Source: Roseburia hominis (GTDB lineage Bacteria > Bacillota > Clostridia > Lachnospirales > Lachnospiraceae). From it: 64,000 bases of DNA. Below, in pieces: positions 35,825-43,907 of the stretch. Under the pieces are notes generated by a model. That model saw only the letters and a program-made list of their open reading frames with translations, did not search any database and had not been told where the DNA came from. The position numbers and the translations under genes were made by a program. Numbering within the stretch: the first letter of the stretch is position 1; every line of letters begins with the position of its first letter. The stretch lies in the NCBI RefSeq assembly GCF_021531695.1, contig NZ_JADYUI010000004.1, positions 1 through 64,000 of the forward strand, in the 5' to 3' direction.

Positions 35825-37522
35825 TTACCGTATCCGCAATTTATTGAGCGATTCATAAACATCAAGTATTCCATATCCCCACTCCCGATTGGGATAGCGC
35901 CTGATGTTATCCTCACGTCTTGCTCCACGCAGAATATAATTTTTTATATCTGCTGTATTTACCATTGTATCATATTCCCGCATAACTGCCCACTCCAATA
36001 ATAACGCACTTCCTCCTGCGGCAATTGCTGCCGCAACACTGGTTCCCGTCATGCGAATATATTGATTCCGAAGTCCCGGACCATATACATTTACACCGGG
36101 TGCCACAAAGTCCGGCTTGACCTGCCCCGATATCGTATATCCCCTTCCGGAATCCAAAAACAGGCTTCCTGTCTGTGCATCATATGCACCGACTCCCATC
36201 GGAACTGCAGCGGTTGCCGGCACTGTAATTGTAACATCCGGATTCGAACGAAGGAAAAACACTTCTCCACTTAAGAAAGCCGGCAAAGGCAGCCACATGT
36301 GATATCTCCCATTTTCAATATTTTCATCCGCATATACAACAACATCCCATAATCCCTTTGTCGGCCGCTCAAATCGAAAAAACACCAGCCAGTCACCAGT
36401 AGTCACACCTACCGAGCGATAGTCTACACTAACAATTGTCTCTTCAAAAACAAACTGCTGCACCACACGGTTTCCCTGACGTACCGGAACCCTTGCAATC
36501 TGTTCTCCGGTTGGAGAAACAACCGCCACCGAATGCACCTCCGGAGCTTGGGCCCAAAGCTCCACCGTAAACCCTTTTACTGCATCCCCCACACTGATTT
36601 CTACCGTCTGTGACGTTTCATTTCCGTCAAATGTTCCATAAAAATGATGTCTACTGTTTGCTTCATTTCCGGCTGCTATTGCAACCACATGATTCCTTAT
36701 CACCGCAATACTGTTAAGATACAAGGATAATGGACCGGTGCCTCTGTGACTTCCCATATTGCTTCCAAGTCCGACACAAAGCACCAAGGGCTTATTCAAT
36801 TCCATAGACAACTGATTCAAATAGGAAATTGCTGCCATAACATCACCCTCACTATAAGCCTCCGCATCTTTTGGAATAAAATAAAAATCTCTTAAGTTTT
36901 GTTTTGCCGGCTTTAATTTTACCATTGCAATTTCTGCATAGGGTGCCGCTCCAATGAAATCATTTGCTATGTCTTCCGAACCCGCTGCCACCCCCGCAAG
37001 AAAAGTCCCGTGTCCATTTTCATCTACACTTGGCACGATATCATGTGGATTTTCAGAACGTAATGCCGTATCAATCTCTTCTTTCGTATATTCACTTCCA
37101 TATAAAAAACCTTCCGGTTTCCTTCCATTCCGTATCGTCTGATCCCAGATTCTTAAAATCCGGCTATTTGCTTCGCTACTTTGAAAAACAGGGTTTGTAT
37201 AGTCAATTCCGGTATCCAAAAAACCCAAAAGAATCCCTTCTCCTTTTAACGATAACGTTGGCTGATTCTGCACCTTAGTAATACCGCTACTGTCGAGTGC
37301 TGATTTGTCCATCAAAGAAAAGCATTGTGGAATTGCCGTGTACGTATAATCACTCACATTAAGCTCCGGCAACCCCTGCCTGTTATAATAACCAATCTCA
37401 TAATCTATGCTGATTTTCTGACGGCAGTCCGGCAACACAACCACCTTTTGCATATCTATGCTACTGTATGAAATAATCAAATCATAATAGTCTTCGGAAT
37501 ATATTACCTCTTCGCAATCCAT
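35825..37522 (-). CDS. S8 serine peptidase, Csp-like, second copy
   Basis: 565 residues from the ATG at 37522 (GGGAGG upstream). Triad: D in LLGFLDTGIDYTNPVF, H in ENGHGTFLAGVAAGSE and S in RMTGTSVAAAIAAGGSALL. Catalytic S is kept although the downstream GTSMATP motif is changed to GTSVAAA. Same layout as the protein at 6926: no signal peptide, long beta-rich insert. Paralogues of this type in Clostridia process spore proteins, but a spore role here is only an analogy. It lies directly downstream of the peptide cluster on the same strand. Confidence 0.85.
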   Translation of the reverse strand: MDCEEVIYSEDYYDLIISYSSIDMQKVVVLPDCRQKISIDYEIGYYNRQGLPELNVSDYTYTAIPQCFSLMDKSALDSSGITKVQNQPTLSLKGEGILLGFLDTGIDYTNPVFQSSEANSRILRIWDQTIRNGRKPEGFLYGSEYTKEEIDTALRSENPHDIVPSVDENGHGTFLAGVAAGSEDIANDFIGAAPYAEIAMVKLKPAKQNLRDFYFIPKDAEAYSEGDVMAAISYLNQLSMELNKPLVLCVGLGSNMGSHRGTGPLSLYLNSIAVIRNHVVAIAAGNEANSRHHFYGTFDGNETSQTVEISVGDAVKGFTVELWAQAPEVHSVAVVSPTGEQIARVPVRQGNRVVQQFVFEETIVSVDYRSVGVTTGDWLVFFRFERPTKGLWDVVVYADENIENGRYHMWLPLPAFLSGEVFFLRSNPDVTITVPATAAVPMGVGAYDAQTGSLFLDSGRGYTISGQVKPDFVAPGVNVYGPGLRNQYIRMTGTSVAAAIAAGGSALLLEWAVMREYDTMVNTADIKNYILRGARREDNIRRYPNREWGYGILDVYESLNKLRIR

Positions 37523-37602
37523 GCTTACCTCCCATCCTGACAAATCATATTGCCTTCATACCTAAGATATGCATACGACTACGCTTTGTTCTTTTTTCGA
37601 AA

Positions 37603-39186
37603 TTACGCCAACTTTATTACCTCATCAAAACGGTTCAGATATTCTTCGGATGTATCATGGGTAATTACAATAACAATTTTATCTTTTATCGCAAAAATCA
37701 TATTATAAATTGCTTCTGATGTATCCGGATCCAGATTGCTGGTTGGCTCATCAAAAATCAGCATATCATAATCACCAATCATAAATCTTGCAGTATCAAT
37801 TCTTTGCTTTTCCCCAAAAGAAACTTCACTTTTATTAGAGATGTCAATCTGTTTTTTCTTTAAGGTTTCATCTAATTTTAATGCATCACAAACCCCATTC
37901 AGCCGTTCTTCATAAGCATCTGTCCGATACAGAAGAATATTGTCTTTTACACTTCCGTCAACTAAAAATTCATTTCTCTGAATGAACGCAATCTTCTGAT
38001 AAATGCTCTCTGAACAGATTGTCCTGATATCCTGCCCATTAATATACACATTACCAAAATACGCATCATCCTTTACATACTTCATAAGTAACTTCGCCAA
38101 TGTCGATTTTCCTTTTCCCGACTCGCCAAGGATTGCATATTTTTTCCCCTGTTCAAACTGAACATGATAGTGGTCGAATATTTTTTTATCACCAAACTGC
38201 AGACTGATGTCTTTGAATTCCACCTGTCTGATTTTTTCTTCCAGACCAAGTCTTTGTTCTTCCTCCATCATCTGATTCACATCAATCTTATGTAAGATAT
38301 CATCTACCGTTCCCATTAAGTTCTTATCATTGACCAGATTCTGAAGTGGAGAAAATACTCCGTTTAAAAGCTGTACCGCGGCAATTAATAATCCAACCGT
38401 CAAATCTTTCTGCAGTACAAGCCAGATTCCTGCCGCCATACAAAAAAGCTGCGAAAGCATCCCAAACGACATTCCAAGATCCATTGCCGCAATCTTCGCA
38501 AAAAGATAGTTCTTTCTTGATTTTTCATAAACCGCATCTTTTTCATCTAATTTCCGGCAGAATCTCTTATTTAAGCCCAGTAACTTCACCTGCTCATATC
38601 CGCCCAGATAATTTTCCAAAATTCCAAGATACCTGCTGGTACTCGTAGAATAAGCAGATGTTTTTTTCGCCATAACCGCACCCGGCAACTGAGACAAAAC
38701 AATTGTAACAAATGATATTCCCACAAAAATAAGTCCAAGTTTCCAATGAATCATAAAAATAGACACCAGGCAGACTGTTGCCGAAAGAAAATTGCTTGCA
38801 ATATCACATTTGGGAACCAGGTAATTATCTACAAGCAAGTCCATATCTTTTGAAAACAAGCCGAGATAACTTCCATTACTCTGCTCCATAAAATCACTGA
38901 GCTCTTTTTGATACAATGCATGATATAATCTGCTTTTAATATAACGTATTGTCTTATTCACATATACGATTTCCGCATAATCAAAAAAGAATGTAAAAAC
39001 CAGCCATAAAACCAGCATTATCACACAACTGAGCAGACATTTTCCCAACGTATCATCCGACTTTGAAATCACGTCAATCACGTTTCCCAGGCAAAGCGAG
39101 AATCTTGACATAAAAAACGCCGCTACCGCACCAAATAAAACTGTCATAAAATAATAACCCAAGTATTTTCTTTCTGCTTCTTTCAT
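37603..39186 (-). CDS. ABC exporter (fused membrane and ATPase domains) of the peptide cluster
   Basis: 527 residues from the ATG at 39186; a first ATG at 39192 is too close to AGGAG. Six membrane helices (about 9-290), then the ATPase with Walker A GESGKGKST (about 355), a variant signature VSFGEKQR in place of LSGGQ, Walker B MLIFDEPTSNLD and H-loop ITHD. There is no C39 peptidase domain, so leader removal must be done by another enzyme, such as the M16 protein upstream. It would export the modified peptide. Same strand as the M16 gene, 78 bases downstream. Confidence 0.85.
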   Translation of the reverse strand: MKEAERKYLGYYFMTVLFGAVAAFFMSRFSLCLGNVIDVISKSDDTLGKCLLSCVIMLVLWLVFTFFFDYAEIVYVNKTIRYIKSRLYHALYQKELSDFMEQSNGSYLGLFSKDMDLLVDNYLVPKCDIASNFLSATVCLVSIFMIHWKLGLIFVGISFVTIVLSQLPGAVMAKKTSAYSTSTSRYLGILENYLGGYEQVKLLGLNKRFCRKLDEKDAVYEKSRKNYLFAKIAAMDLGMSFGMLSQLFCMAAGIWLVLQKDLTVGLLIAAVQLLNGVFSPLQNLVNDKNLMGTVDDILHKIDVNQMMEEEQRLGLEEKIRQVEFKDISLQFGDKKIFDHYHVQFEQGKKYAILGESGKGKSTLAKLLMKYVKDDAYFGNVYINGQDIRTICSESIYQKIAFIQRNEFLVDGSVKDNILLYRTDAYEERLNGVCDALKLDETLKKKQIDISNKSEVSFGEKQRIDTARFMIGDYDMLIFDEPTSNLDPDTSEAIYNMIFAIKDKIVIVITHDTSEEYLNRFDEVIKLA

Positions 39187-39264
39187 AATCATTATCTCCT
39201 TGTCATTATATAACAGAATAAATATCTATACAGCAAATAATTCGCATTATATGCATATGAATCA

Positions 39265-40485
39265 TCATGATTCATTGATAAATATACTGCTTTCCTTTAA
39301 ACCATCAAATGCCTTTTGTACTACAAATCGCATTCTTTTATAATCTATTGTTTCCAACCAATGTAGTATTTCAACATTTGTCGGTTGATTAAATAAATAA
39401 CTTTTTGATAGCTGAGAAACCGTTTCCAGCGGTTTATTTTCCTCTATTAACATTATTTCATTATATACTCTTTTTTTTGCTTTTAAAAATAATGAACTGT
39501 AATCATTTTTATTACTACAACAAAATTCCTTAAATATCATTTTAATTTCATTTACTACAAAATCACAATATTTTTTCAAAGTTTTAGTCCGCACTTTAAA
39601 CAGACAAATCGACTTATGAATTTCAGGATAAGAAATTACTTGATATACATAGTTCAATTCTTCTCGTAATTTTTTCATTAATATTGAATCCCCTAGTCCA
39701 GTTAACATTGTGTTAAATATCGCAATACATGGAATCAATTGTTCTAACGGGTACCAATTTAATTTATACGTAATTGAAATATCACTATAAGTATTACCAC
39801 TACCTTTTTCTTGATTAGTATATTTTAACACATTGAATTGGGGAAACGAACAATTATTAACGTCTAATATCAGATTTTTTTGACCTTTCGCTCTAATTAT
39901 ACCTAGTGGGTATGTACACTCATCTATTTCATCATAATCTATATTTCCAATTAAAGACATTACACATCTGTTATTTTCTAGCAAATTGTTTCTAAAATCA
40001 TTAACATCATCCAATGTTATATCTTCAACACTGTGCATATTTCCTAAGATATCATTTTCCCACAGAGAATCATTAAAAATCATCTTATTTTCTTTTAACC
40101 GAATATTTTTTTCTGTATTAATATATTGTTGAATCTCACATTGAACAATTTTCTTATTTCTTTCTAATTCCTCACTTTCAATATTTTTCAAATAGATATC
40201 ATCTATCAATCTTTTTAAAAATATTTTTTTCTGGCTAGATAAAAAATAGCCTGAAATATTCATATATTCACGAGCTGTTTCCCCACGAATATCCACTCCT
40301 TCTGTATCAAAAAAAATACTAAGATTATCATCCGCTTTCATACTTAACAACAAATGTTCTAAAAGATGTGTAATACCAACATTCGTTTCATTTTCTATAA
40401 CTGTTCCTCCCAAAAACATAATAGAAAAATATATATACTGGCATCCTGCATTTTTTTTTATAATTAGAGGAATGTTATTATTCAA
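39265..40485 (-). CDS. M16 family zinc peptidase of the peptide cluster
   Basis: 406 residues, two M16 halves. The inverted zinc motif HLLEH (about residue 42, in GITHLLEHLLLS) and the distal glutamate in IVQCEIQQY are intact, so it should be active. The second half (about 210-406) looks like the inactive partner domain. M16 peptidases act as leader peptidases or modifiers in several RiPP clusters (e.g. AlbF, PqqF). Start is TTG at 40485 behind GGGAGG, overlapping the ThiF gene stop by 8 bases. The sequence is visibly more AT-rich than its surroundings, a sign of transfer. Confidence 0.85.
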   Translation of the reverse strand: MNNNIPLIIKKNAGCQYIYFSIMFLGGTVIENETNVGITHLLEHLLLSMKADDNLSIFFDTEGVDIRGETAREYMNISGYFLSSQKKIFLKRLIDDIYLKNIESEELERNKKIVQCEIQQYINTEKNIRLKENKMIFNDSLWENDILGNMHSVEDITLDDVNDFRNNLLENNRCVMSLIGNIDYDEIDECTYPLGIIRAKGQKNLILDVNNCSFPQFNVLKYTNQEKGSGNTYSDISITYKLNWYPLEQLIPCIAIFNTMLTGLGDSILMKKLREELNYVYQVISYPEIHKSICLFKVRTKTLKKYCDFVVNEIKMIFKEFCCSNKNDYSSLFLKAKKRVYNEIMLIEENKPLETVSQLSKSYLFNQPTNVEILHWLETIDYKRMRFVVQKAFDGLKESSIFINES

Positions 40486-41602
40486 TTTTTAATACCTCCC
40501 ATATATCATCAACCGTATCTTGATTGTTTTCTCCACATGTCGGACAGTTAGATTCTTTTTTAAATTTAACAAATGCTTTCTCTTCAAATAAATCAAAACT
40601 AAATCGAAATAATTTATTCCATGGATTTTTCTCTATTCCACAATAAACGTCTAACCATTTTTTCGCAATCCAAGAACATAAAAGTGTAATATTGGGGTAA
40701 ATATTGGCTGTTATAAGCTTTTGTTTGTTATTCAAAAATAATCCTGCCAACTTTCTAAACTCTGCACTATCACACGATTTAAGAAGGCAATCCACACAAC
40801 CAGACACCGCAGGATTTACCATAAACATTTTTCCAGCACTTTTTTGGCTGAAGCAATATAAACTTGGTATTTTTAACTCCATGCATGCTTTATTAGTAAT
40901 TCTTTGTGCTACATATGGTGGTTCGTCCATTGCACAAAATACCCAATCTGAACCCTGCACCTCATTTTCCACATCCGCTACGCTATTCATTCGCTTATTA
41001 CTTACAGTAATAGTAATATAAGGATTCTTTCTTTTTAATGTTTGTTGAGTAATTTTTGTCTTCATCTGTCCAATATCATCCATTGTAAACAATACTTGCC
41101 TATTTACGTTATCACAATTAACAATATCTGGATCTACTAGGTGTAAGTTTCCTACCCCTAACTGACATAACTGTAATGCCAGATTTGCTCCTCCCCCACC
41201 ACATCCCAAAATAGTGATTTTAATATTTTGAAGCTTCTTGAAAAGTTCTACTCCACCTAATCCTTTGCTTGAATAGTATGTTATTACCGATTGAAAATAG
41301 TCCATTCGTCTGTCATAATGATATGAATCTGCCAATAATTCCAACAAATTTCTTTGTTCAAACTGTTTTATGAATGTATATGTTTTCTGCAAACTTATTC
41401 CATATTTTTGATTCATTTGCTTTGCAATTGCTTCAACGGTTTTTGTTCCATCTAAAAGTTCAATAAATTCAAGCCAAAATGATATATCACTCTTAATTTC
41501 AATAGTATCATCATCCTCAGCACCAATCCTCAGACAATCTTCCCTTAATTTATATACTATCCTATCCCGATTAAATAACGGATATTTTTTTACTTCTTCC
41601 AT
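40478..41602 (-). CDS. PqqD-fused ThiF/E1-like adenylyltransferase (RiPP modification enzyme)
   Basis: 374 residues. N-terminal about 90 residues read like a PqqD-type peptide-binding (RRE) domain (SFWLEFIELLDGTKTVEAIA). The E1-like domain has ITILGCGGGGANLALQL (about 129, nucleotide loop), HLVDPDIVNCDNVNRQ (D and R of the ATP site) and a four-cysteine zinc site from GCVDC (about 268) and CPTCG (about 357). No E1 catalytic cysteine is evident, as in MccB. By family it adenylates a peptide or a residue in it, which then reacts onwards. The peptide is presumably the 30-residue product at 41684. Confidence 0.85.
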   Translation of the reverse strand: MEEVKKYPLFNRDRIVYKLREDCLRIGAEDDDTIEIKSDISFWLEFIELLDGTKTVEAIAKQMNQKYGISLQKTYTFIKQFEQRNLLELLADSYHYDRRMDYFQSVITYYSSKGLGGVELFKKLQNIKITILGCGGGGANLALQLCQLGVGNLHLVDPDIVNCDNVNRQVLFTMDDIGQMKTKITQQTLKRKNPYITITVSNKRMNSVADVENEVQGSDWVFCAMDEPPYVAQRITNKACMELKIPSLYCFSQKSAGKMFMVNPAVSGCVDCLLKSCDSAEFRKLAGLFLNNKQKLITANIYPNITLLCSWIAKKWLDVYCGIEKNPWNKLFRFSFDLFEEKAFVKFKKESNCPTCGENNQDTVDDIWEVLKIE

Positions 41603-41683
41603 AATCTTTCCTCTTTTTATTTATAAAAAGAATACACCATATAGACATATTAAATCATGCCTACATGATGCATTCCATCACTA

Positions 41684-41776
41684 TTAGATAAAGTACCAGT
41701 TAATTTCTTTGTCATTTCTTACTTCTTCTAATTCAAGAGATATTTCTTCATCTTTACTAACATTATTATTTTCCAT
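41684..41776 (-). CDS. Candidate RiPP precursor peptide (30 residues)
   Basis: Too short for automatic calling. ATG at 41776 follows GGAAGGAGAAG; TAA ends at 41684, 81 bases before the PqqD-ThiF gene. The N-terminal part is acidic with helix-like repeats (MENNNVSKDEEISLELEE), as in leader regions bound by PqqD-type domains; the C-terminal part is short and aromatic (RNDKEINWYFI). There is no cysteine, and the last residue is isoleucine, not asparagine as in microcin C. Position, size and the acidic leader support precursor status; the modification is unknown. Confidence 0.7.
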   Translation of the reverse strand: MENNNVSKDEEISLELEEVRNDKEINWYFI

Positions 41777-41844
41777 AATATTTCTTCTCCTTCCTAATTT
41801 TATTTGGTCTATAGTCCATATCTATACCCTATAATAGTCTTACT

Positions 41845-41900
41845 AAAAAGTGTATGACGTTTTTTGAAAAACTTATTTCAAAAAACGTCATACACTTTTT
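41845..41900. promoter_or_regulatory. Perfect 25-bp inverted repeat between divergent peptide genes
   Basis: Arms 41845-41869 and 41876-41900 are exact reverse complements with a 6-base centre. The outer AAAAAGTGTATGACG/CGTCATACACTTTTT ends reach the promoters on both sides. It lies between the RiPP precursor (-) and the 46-residue peptide (+). It is most likely the operator of the HTH-TPR regulator. A bidirectional attenuator/terminator role is possible, since T-runs follow both arms. Confidence 0.65.
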
Positions 41901-41919
41901 TTAATCTGTTCTTTATAAT
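41891..41919 (+). promoter_or_regulatory. Putative promoter of the 46-residue peptide gene
   Basis: TATAAT at 41914-41919; a weak -35 (TACACT at 41891) lies within the right arm of the inverted repeat with a 17-base spacer. A divergent -10-like TATTAT lies at 41831-41836 on the minus strand. Confidence 0.5.
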
Positions 41920-41954
41920 GTGTTTTAACAAATTTTACAAAGGAGTATTTACTT

Positions 41955-42095
41955 ATGAATAAAAAATCATTTCAATCACTAGCAAAATACATTCTTATTA
42001 CAACACTTTTATTTACGCTAATTACCCCAACTGTCTATACATATGATAATGGCTTTCAAATAACATCTTATGAAAAAGATGAACTGGAAAACTAA
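41955..42095 (+). CDS. Candidate secreted signalling pro-peptide (46 residues)
   Basis: ATG at 41955 is preceded by AAAGGAG, TAA ends at 42095. Residues 1-11 carry lysines, 12-29 form a hydrophobic segment (YILITTLLFTLITPTVYT), and the last 17 residues are polar (DNGFQITSYEKDELEN). This is the shape of an exported pro-peptide of the Phr, PapR or SHP kind. Its stop overlaps the stop of the convergent HTH-TPR regulator by 4 bases, as in rgg-shp pairs. It could instead be an immunity or second structural peptide. Confidence 0.65.
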   Translation: MNKKSFQSLAKYILITTLLFTLITPTVYTYDNGFQITSYEKDELEN

Positions 42096-43897
42096 TATAA
42101 TTTCTCATAAAACTTCTGTTCATACGCCTGTTTCAATGTGTCAGCCAGTTTTTCATGATGATATAATACATTTAAATAATATGCATTTCTGAGATATCTT
42201 TTCTCCGTAATCTCCTGTTTTCTCTTTTCATAAATACAGGACATATTAGCAATAATCTTACCTGCCGTATCTCCCCTTTGACAACTTATTGCAAATTTCA
42301 GTCCCTCTAAAGCAACCGCCTCTGCTTCCTTAAGCTGGTCATTTTCCTCCAAATGGGCAGCACAATTCAAATAAAGCAAAATCATCGGCACTACATGATA
42401 TTTAAGGTCGGTACCGTTGCTCTTATATTTTTTCAGCACCTGCTGATAAATCTTGACGGATTCTCTTGTTTTCCCCATCTCATGTAAACGTCTCGCAATC
42501 TGATTTAGAATAAAAAATTCTGTCCGGAATGGCAACCGATAGATTCTTTCTGCCTCTTCTATTGGCGGCATCGTAAGACTGAGCAGACCCCATAACTGGT
42601 CAATTGCTTCCTCTTCTGACAGTTTATTCTGCATGATCTTATTGACAATTTCAGCACAACCGACAAACTGCCTGTTCAGAATACATGACAGATCTAACCC
42701 ATCTTTCATCTCGCAGAACACTTCCTCTGCATGCTTTACATCTCTCTTACCAATTAGCCGGTTATATTCCCTGACCTTCTCATAGATAGCGTAATGCTCA
42801 GATTCGATAAATCCATAATAATGCTCTCTTTCCACTCCTAACCGTTTCCACATCTGATAAAGCTTCTTTTTATTTGGATTCCTGCCGCTTTCTATCCTTG
42901 AAATGGTCTCCCACGCACAGACATCTTCACAGAGTTCCTCCTGTGTCACACCCTCTGCTTCTCTTAAATTTCTTAAAAACTGATTACTAATCACACACTC
43001 TCGTTGTGTATTACTTTTTAAAAACCGGATGATAGAAAATTCTGGAAACTTCATCCCTGCTGTTTCATACAGCATATGCATCGCTGCATGATATCTCCCA
43101 TATTCGTCCAATTCCGCTTTCCGGTTCAATTTTTTCATACATGCGATTTTTAATGAGATTAGCTCGTCCATCCAGTGCAATGCGCCATTTACCCGTAGAC
43201 ATTCCAAACCTTTTTCAACAAAATCATCGGCTCTCTCATATTCTTTTTGTTCATACAAAATCTGCCCGATGAGCCACGAGCACTGCGGATAAACCTTTAC
43301 TTTTGCCTCTTCATCCGTATAAGAATGATTCAGATACTGCATAACCTTTTTTGCTATGGCAAGTGCTTCCTGCCACTGACTGCATTCATATTTCAAATAA
43401 GCAATCAGATATAACAGACGGATTTCCTGATGAAAGAAGTAAATATCATTTTCTCTATATCCCATACACGTTATTTTTAAGGCTTCTTCTAATGCCTGTA
43501 ATGCCTGCTGTCTGTCCTGATTCTTCTGATAATTATTTAACGCCTGTACCTGCTTTATATATTGTTCATGAAGTGGTTTTCGACAATTGGCCTTCTTTTG
43601 GTATAACAAAATCAATCGGTCCACTTCCAGAAAATTTCCCTGTTCCAACCCATCTACAATATCTTCTCGTAATTGGAGCAGTTCATATTCCTCCTGCGTA
43701 ACTGCCAGTTCCAACTTATCGATACATTTTCCCAGTGTTTCAAACAGGGCTTCCAACGCCAGATATTCCACATCCTTCTCCCCAGACTCTAGTTTCGACA
43801 AATCTGACGGATTGATAATACCACGGGCTGTGTTTTGTATCGTCCGGGATGCGTCTTCTCTTAGTTCTTTTAACAAATATCCGACTGTATTTTTCAT
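42092..43897 (-). CDS. Duplicated HTH-TPR transcriptional regulator, RRNPP type
   Basis: 601 residues from the ATG at 43897 (AAGGAGGTA upstream). Two xre-type HTH segments are seen: one at about 1-65 (NPSDLSKLESGEKD) and one at about 320-372 (VTQEELCEDVCAWETISRIESGRNPNKK). Each is followed by helical TPR-like repeats (about 70-300 and 375-590). The protein thus looks like a tandem [HTH-TPR] duplication of a Rgg/PlcR-like receptor. It probably binds the 41845-41900 palindrome and responds to a peptide. A small acidic or cytosolic peptide ligand is inferred, not seen. Confidence 0.8.
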   Translation of the reverse strand: MKNTVGYLLKELREDASRTIQNTARGIINPSDLSKLESGEKDVEYLALEALFETLGKCIDKLELAVTQEEYELLQLREDIVDGLEQGNFLEVDRLILLYQKKANCRKPLHEQYIKQVQALNNYQKNQDRQQALQALEEALKITCMGYRENDIYFFHQEIRLLYLIAYLKYECSQWQEALAIAKKVMQYLNHSYTDEEAKVKVYPQCSWLIGQILYEQKEYERADDFVEKGLECLRVNGALHWMDELISLKIACMKKLNRKAELDEYGRYHAAMHMLYETAGMKFPEFSIIRFLKSNTQRECVISNQFLRNLREAEGVTQEELCEDVCAWETISRIESGRNPNKKKLYQMWKRLGVEREHYYGFIESEHYAIYEKVREYNRLIGKRDVKHAEEVFCEMKDGLDLSCILNRQFVGCAEIVNKIMQNKLSEEEAIDQLWGLLSLTMPPIEEAERIYRLPFRTEFFILNQIARRLHEMGKTRESVKIYQQVLKKYKSNGTDLKYHVVPMILLYLNCAAHLEENDQLKEAEAVALEGLKFAISCQRGDTAGKIIANMSCIYEKRKQEITEKRYLRNAYYLNVLYHHEKLADTLKQAYEQKFYEKLY

Positions 43898-43907
43898 AAG
43901 TACCTCC

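Follow-up and report, generated by a model that had tools for sequence, protein, structure and literature searches.

A putative indolylamide-type peptide cluster facing a tandem PlcR-like regulator in Roseburia hominis

The locus and its origin

This analysis concerns a gene block in a stretch of 64,000 nucleotides of Roseburia hominis (contig NZ_JADYUI010000004.1, positions 1 to 64,000), called here the window. The block brings together two sets of genes that face each other (Table 1). The first is a four-gene unit for a ribosomally synthesized and post-translationally modified peptide (RiPP), read leftward from position 41776 in the order precursor, PqqD-fused ThiF enzyme, M16 peptidase and, last, ATP-binding cassette (ABC) exporter. 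The second consists of the gene of a small secreted peptide and the gene of a duplicated regulator with helix-turn-helix (HTH) and tetratricopeptide repeat (TPR) domains, whose stop codons overlap by 4 base pairs. An earlier note, made from the sequence alone, had proposed each of these parts: a 30-residue precursor candidate, a ThiF enzyme with a four-cysteine site, an M16 peptidase with an intact active site, an exporter devoid of a leader peptidase domain, a 46-residue secreted peptide facing the RiPP genes, and a duplicated HTH-TPR regulator. All six are confirmed, on evidence given in Table 1 and in the following sections, and the palindrome lying between the two sets is an element beyond those that the note had listed.

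Table 1. Features of the block, in window coordinates
Feature	Coordinates	Strand	Remarks
IndA-like precursor, 30 amino acids (aa), ends INWYFI	41684-41776	-	directly upstream of ThiF gene; ribosome-binding site (RBS) present
IndF-like ThiF adenylyltransferase fused to a PqqD domain or RiPP recognition element (RRE)	40478-41602	-	Pfam ThiF, E 1.9e-38
IndP-like two-domain M16 zinc peptidase, predicted leader peptidase	39265-40485	-	Pfam M16 and M16_C
ABC exporter, no peptidase domain in Pfam	37603-39192	-	Pfam ABC_membrane and ABC_tran
Perfect palindrome, 25-bp arms, 6-bp loop, 56 bp; candidate operator	41845-41900		between RiPP operon and peptide gene
46-aa secreted peptide, candidate pheromone precursor	41955-42095	+	RBS and hydrophobic signal segment; convergent with regulator
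Tandem PlcR-like regulator, HTH-TPR twice per chain, 608 aa	42092-43918	-	alternative ATG start at 43897
Inserted block, about 6.4 kb	37544-43907		a congener lacks it between its copies of the two flanking genes

In the congener, labeled G122, the protein matches to the flanking antiporter and S8 protease (78% and 73% identical to the window copies) lie about 77 bp apart, and the block is absent between them. The segment 37544-43907 was thus either acquired here or lost in G122, in a single piece. The GC content of the precursor (24%), ThiF (32.2%) and M16 (26.5%) genes is low, and favours gain over loss; the seven measured neighbours range from 33 to 44%. The suggestion, made earlier, that the AT-richness of the ThiF and M16 genes points to a transfer is supported by these values and by the empty site. 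Since the exporter (36.4%) and the regulator (39.2%) are near the background, the block may be composite. The S8 protease that flanks the insertion (35825-37543) is a relative of CspBA/CspC, which act in germination (NCBIfam E 7e-101, short of the cut-offs of the models).

Precursor and ThiF enzyme

The point of comparison is the ind cluster of Streptococcus pneumoniae, in which IndF links the indole nitrogen of a tryptophan to the C-terminal isoleucine of IndA, as established by NMR (Org Lett 2025, PMC12150305); an M16 peptidase, IndP (the S. equi protein in the assay), then releases a nine-residue core (PMC12150305). The window precursor ends in NWYFI, as does the published S. pneumoniae IndA (PMC12150305), and has tblastn matches to three streptococcal precursors, at 52-58% over 19-21 aa. 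Against three intact streptococcal homologues, the window ThiF protein shows 47-48% identity; its four cysteines, C269, C272, C353 and C356, are the same in all six sequences compared, that of the window among them, and its PqqD match, at E 0.005, falls short of the PqqD cut-off in Pfam. Five residues of IndF were mutated in the published work, namely Q167, K179, Y228, K256 and T298 (PMC12150305), and the window enzyme keeps them all, as Q169, K181, Y230, K258 and T298.

One streptococcal locus, L087, can be set directly against the publication: its enzyme has, at all five of these places, the letters given in PMC12150305. When its precursor is taken without the first four residues, as in that paper, the published mass of the modified core is matched within 0.0004 m/z; the other three published values lie about 0.5 m/z above the monoisotopic ones, as a reading of the first isotope would give.

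The remaining proteins point the same way. In the M16 protein, the HLLEH motif (H40, E43, H44) and E117 are conserved without exception in five sequences, that of the window among them, at 30-34% identity between the window and the other four. The exporter is 36-39% identical to that of seven streptococcal loci, and 43-44% identical, over two pieces, to that of the eighth.

Within the window's family, which we take to be Lachnospiraceae in the sense of GTDB, and which also holds Acetivibrio ethanolgignens and a Falcatimonas strain, both of class Clostridia in NCBI, 397 genomes yielded, among the matches listed, two near-full-length ThiF relatives besides the window, at 30% identity. A profile built on three ThiF sequences led to 17 loci in Firmicutes and Actinobacteria, including both family relatives. 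An open reading frame (ORF) of 20-22 aa, such as MKNITVRRAVKVDATAWWIVF, lies just upstream of ThiF in 15 of the 17; none is listed in L053, nor in L047, where only 165 bases precede the match. Fourteen of these ORFs have a WWI-type ending, a group assigned to enterofaecin in the available text of a review (PMC12250964), and one, from Streptococcus thoraltensis, ends in SWVIV. Short ORFs linked to ThiF that have neither ending, with SWVIV at L054 and LWVVF at L083, possibly represent additional product groups.

In Streptococcus, ThiF relatives at E <= 1e-22 are present in 18 of 247 genomes, and in 8 of them the identity is 41-53%, in one piece or two. All 8 have, just upstream, a small ORF ending in NW[YN]F[IV], found by pattern search in 6 cases and by inspection in two more, which end in NWNFI. 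The exporter is present at 8/8 of these ind loci and the M16 gene at 7/8; in the eighth, the IndF gene meets the end of its contig. The earlier note had named, as what would refute its proposal, that related ThiF genes have no such short ORF conserved ahead of them. With these ORFs at 8/8 streptococcal loci and at 15/17 loci of more distant relatives, the proposal was not refuted, and the conservation is, as judged from sequence, more than chance. In four of the eight genomes (L089, L091, L092 and L093) IndF is split across frames, which suggests frequent loss of the pathway.

The residue at the K256 place separates these groups. It is Lys in 8/8 streptococcal ind loci, and Arg in all 16 readable loci of the 17 found by profile; among 13 other Streptococcus relatives of ThiF, Arg is found in 8, a different residue in 4 and Lys in one, L085. 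As a Streptococcus relative outside the ind group, L085 speaks against taking Lys as a mark of that group; at the Y228 place, its enzyme has no Tyr.

Searches for the ind-type enzyme covered the window's family, Streptococcus and a set of pattern scans, and so part of the Clostridia. Single-protein searches of genome contigs and viral contigs gave no relative, an ind-only profile had no match in viral contigs, and the phage records were also without a relative; two plasmid records hold only relatives of 28-29% identity. NCBIfam has no model for the five precursors tried, and a text search with four WWI-type precursor strings found no paper.

Because the precursor ending, the upstream ORFs, the ThiF residues and the M16 site all agree with the ind loci, we file the block as an ind-type, or indolylamide, RiPP cluster. 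The earlier opinion that the product type of the ThiF enzyme is not predictable is thereby superseded, as precursor and enzyme match a characterised IndA/IndF pair: the predicted product should be a short peptide closed by an amide between the Trp indole nitrogen and the C-terminal Ile. Three known types were considered and ruled out. The precursor ends in Ile, without the C-terminal Asn of microcin C, and its ending also rules out pantocin, so that the earlier note was right to set both aside; enterofaecin is ruled out by NWYFI instead of a WWI-type ending and by Lys258 instead of Arg at the K256 place.

The tandem regulator, its peptide and the palindrome

The N and C halves of the regulator are homologous to each other (hhalign 99.8%, E 7.6e-29, 258 columns). 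An AlphaFold2 model computed from 10 sequences (pLDDT 88, pTM 0.88) has, as its best Foldseek matches in the PDB, structures of PlcR bound to PapR, and the best PDB match of the sequence profile is again PlcR (E 3.2e-17), over the C-terminal half. The regulator thus combines HTH and TPR domains in a PlcR-like fold with an adjacent gene for a small secreted propeptide, as RRNPP receptors do.

The two halves differ at the places aligned to PlcR N159 and N201, presumably peptide-contact residues. Among 39 full-length regulators, the C half has Asn at these places in 15 and 22 cases respectively; the N half has it in 0/39 at both, with mostly Leu instead. This pattern suggests a receptor with one peptide-reading half. 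A profile of 10 regulator sequences matches 28 of the 397 family genomes at E <= 1e-45, the window's included; of the 391 genomes of a class-wide sample, two match: that of the window and another from its family. Loci L192, L193 and L194 have two adjacent single HTH-TPR genes, with a convergent peptide after the second, possibly an unfused ancestor or a split form.

The neighbourhoods of these regulators recur. In 49 regions there are 51 regulator ORFs of at least 200 aa, 50 of which were scored, one being too near a contig end. Counting as a peptide gene any convergent ORF that is 30-80 aa long and has both an RBS and a segment resembling a signal, we found one after 31/50 regulators and after 1/218 other genes of the same regions (Fisher p 2e-26); the sole control gene is a regulator fragment. 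The gap between regulator and peptide gene is -4 bp in 14/31 cases.

The palindrome of the window (fold z -7.5) is unique in its genome, and its half-site, ATGACGTTT, is common to several relatives. Upstream of 27/31 peptide genes there is an inverted repeat that beats all 30 mononucleotide shuffles, although some of these repeats are short. Two places in the 3.1-Mb genome match the pattern ATGACNTTTY-N6-36-RAAANGTCAT, each beside the peptide gene of a tandem regulator; in six other regulator-bearing genomes, a looser site occurs once each in four, three times at a regulator and the fourth time at a contig end. In genome G246, a near-perfect operator-like palindrome (L114, contig C190, 5399-5438) lies at a contig end, near a small weakly DUF2712-like protein and ABC-like genes; the regulator of G246 was found on another contig.

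At least 2 kb beyond the peptide gene was available in 25/31 loci, and in four of these the first divergent operon is RiPP-like: the window, L115, L161 and L175. Locus L115 has a 44-aa precursor-like ORF with Cys, a PqqD-radical S-adenosylmethionine (SAM) protein, its PqqD below cut-off, and an ABC exporter; L161 has a radical SAM protein whose SPASM match falls just short of the cut-off, a 43-aa ORF with CGLGCGG and, by eye, an ABC-like ORF; L175 has a radical SAM gene in two ORFs and an 80-aa Cys-rich ORF. Apart from the window, L161 alone among these loci combines a strong palindrome with the half-site. In the remaining loci, the first genes resemble those of secreted proteins, ABC systems or housekeeping functions, as judged by eye with some Pfam scans. 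The radical SAM protein of L161 (2883-4700, + strand) also has an N-terminal JAB-like stretch (E 0.0067, below cut-off) and would be an unusual RiPP maturase.

Control by a pheromone is supported by the count of peptides after regulators and after other genes, the repeats at 27/31 peptide genes, the two operator sites at two tandem regulators, the matches to PlcR, and the presence of the module opposite three other RiPP-like operons. Several observations weigh against it. By our filter, 19/50 regulator ORFs have no convergent peptide, three of them being N-terminal halves of split pairs. Upstream of 4/31 peptide genes, among them that of the RiPP-linked L115, the repeat does not beat the shuffles; the repeat of L175 is short and lacks the half-site. 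The left arm contains ATGAC or ATGTCG in only 13 of the 27 passing repeats. An inverted repeat score of at least 16 is reached at 14/204 control genes, which can include genes across the same operators, as against 19/31 peptide genes, and the reversed control pattern is also found, once in the window's own genome and three times in one of the six others. Finally, VIA-align places the regulator close to PlcR (Z 17.8, rmsd 2.4 over 214 residues), but there PlcR ties with unrelated TPR proteins, so that the fold alone leaves the function unsettled.

Two alternatives concern this half of the locus. The first accepts an ind-type cluster, but has the regulator sense the RiPP product instead of the 46-aa peptide. 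TPR receptors bind short hydrophobic peptides, the RiPP product is such a peptide, and the candidate operator adjoins the RiPP operon; however, tandem regulators have their convergent secreted peptide with or without a neighbouring RiPP, and the C-half Asn at the N201 place, given the peptide-contact role of that residue, fits a linear peptide ligand. We regard this alternative as unlikely. A second, which takes the palindrome for a bidirectional transcription terminator and the pair of peptide and regulator for an unrelated neighbour, seems to us quite improbable. The palindrome does score as a terminator on both strands, which also counts against its role as an operator, but it lies between divergent genes, 54 bp ahead of the peptide start; the sequence of the outer half-site, beyond the hairpin, recurs in other genomes; and the block, from regulator and peptide to palindrome and RiPP genes, is either wholly there or wholly missing.

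A model of the switch and its known relatives

We are fairly confident in reading the block as a self-contained ind-type RiPP unit, acquired by transfer and equipped with a quorum switch of its own. The earlier note had suggested a peptide product under peptide-pheromone control, and this stands as the best reading, the product by its match to ind and the control by comparative support.

The model would run as follows. The 46-aa propeptide would be secreted, trimmed outside and re-imported, to bind the TPR groove of the tandem regulator. To judge from the conserved layout, the regulator would act at the 56-bp palindrome and control both the propeptide gene and the divergent RiPP operon. The precursor would bind the PqqD/RRE domain; the ThiF domain would adenylate the C-terminal Ile carboxylate, and attack by the Trp indole nitrogen, seen in vitro for S. 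pneumoniae IndF, would close a WYFI indolylamide ring. The M16 peptidase would remove the leader, probably leaving DKEINWYFI (calculated cyclic [M+H]+ 1209.594), and the ABC protein would export the product, whose activity, at a guess, is to inhibit the growth of relatives. That the enzyme makes another C-terminal product, such as an enterofaecin-like imide, an amidation, a thiolactone or a nucleotide adduct, is the least probable alternative: related ThiF enzymes do carry out such reactions, and enterofaecin-like homologues are about 30% identical to the window protein, but the window precursor has neither a WWI-type ending, nor a Cys, nor a C-terminal Asn, and the enzyme has Lys, not Arg, at the K256 place.

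Beyond this locus, it is tempting to conjecture, and we think it rather probable, that tandem PlcR-like proteins form a separate receptor class in this clostridial family. They would be single-chain asymmetric dimers, with a C-terminal half that reads the peptide and a degenerate N-terminal half, placed tail-to-tail with the propeptide gene and associated with long palindromes, often with ATGAC(G/T)TTT half-sites. As portable switches, they would serve RiPP operons whose chemistries are unrelated, among them that of the first ind-type macrocycle known from outside lactic acid bacteria. The word "first" is based on the available text of the review PMC12250964, and on our searches of the window's family and of Streptococcus, and our pattern scans. 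That text calls the NWYFI precursor group exclusive to lactobacilli; the window cluster lies in Clostridia, outside this stated range.

The S. pneumoniae ind cluster (PMC12150305) shares with the window the NWYFI ending, an RRE-fused ThiF with the probed residues, an M16 peptidase and an ABC exporter. The window differs in its host, a clostridium, in its leader, and in the position of the exporter gene, last here but first in the streptococcal loci examined. Control differs too: the window has a tandem PlcR-like protein with its own peptide, and 3/8 streptococcal loci have, next to the peptidase, an Rgg-like gene, which is short in two cases; of the five loci without one, three end at contig ends. 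Since Rgg-like genes also adjoin these 3/8 loci, it appears that TPR pheromone receptors became linked with ind clusters on more than one occasion. The control module is the newer part of the finding, the RiPP chemistry being already known from streptococci. A cluster that seemed unclassifiable nevertheless gains an exact prediction of product and mass, and the macrocycle class is extended from streptococci to Clostridia.

PlcR is paired with its own target, the PlcR box. The PlcR-PapR system (RRNPP; PDB 2qfc/3u3w) has in common with the window the HTH and TPR receptor fold, an adjacent gene for a small secreted propeptide, and a palindromic target; window-type systems differ by two receptor units per chain of about 600 aa, by a convergent peptide gene, with stops that often overlap, and by a much longer palindrome. 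In streptococci, according to the available text of PMC12445099, Rgg/SHP systems control RiPP operons. Such operons (PMC12445099, PMC13361665) likewise have a cytosolic TPR pheromone receptor and a dedicated small peptide, but, as far as those texts go, the window-type receptor is of a different class, its propeptide has a longer, signal-peptide-like head, and the host group is another.

In its available text, the RRNPP_detector survey limits receptors to 250-500 aa, and Lachnospiraceae are not named there among the families with 196 RRNPP-linked gene clusters. At 608 aa, the tandem duplicate of the window exceeds this limit, and the survey would therefore have missed receptors of its kind. 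Our literature search found no paper joining RRNPP with Lachnospiraceae, and the available texts of the RRNPP literature searched gave no report of tandem receptors, which may exist elsewhere. One clostridial family would thus hold peptide signalling systems that this survey, by its stated 500-aa limit, could not list. The tail-to-tail position of the peptide genes and the recurrence of the palindromes allow receptor, signal and target sites to be proposed from sequence, which opens RiPP induction and communication by peptides in these bacteria to direct tests.

Enterofaecin-type (WWIII) clusters, as described in the available text of PMC12250964, share with the window the RRE-ThiF enzyme and a precursor, of 20-21 aa, just upstream; they differ by their WWI-type endings and by Arg at the K256 place. 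Two such clusters, L036 in genome G302 and L037 in genome G047, have the 21-aa precursor MKNITVRRAVKVDATAWWIVF and, in contrast to the M16 gene of the window, an HExxH membrane protein next (no Pfam match in the one scanned). Their neighbours also include a TetR-like regulator and two ABC systems, and they adjoin relaxase-like genes (TetR, ABC and relaxase by eye). Both G302 and G047 also carry tandem PlcR-like regulators.

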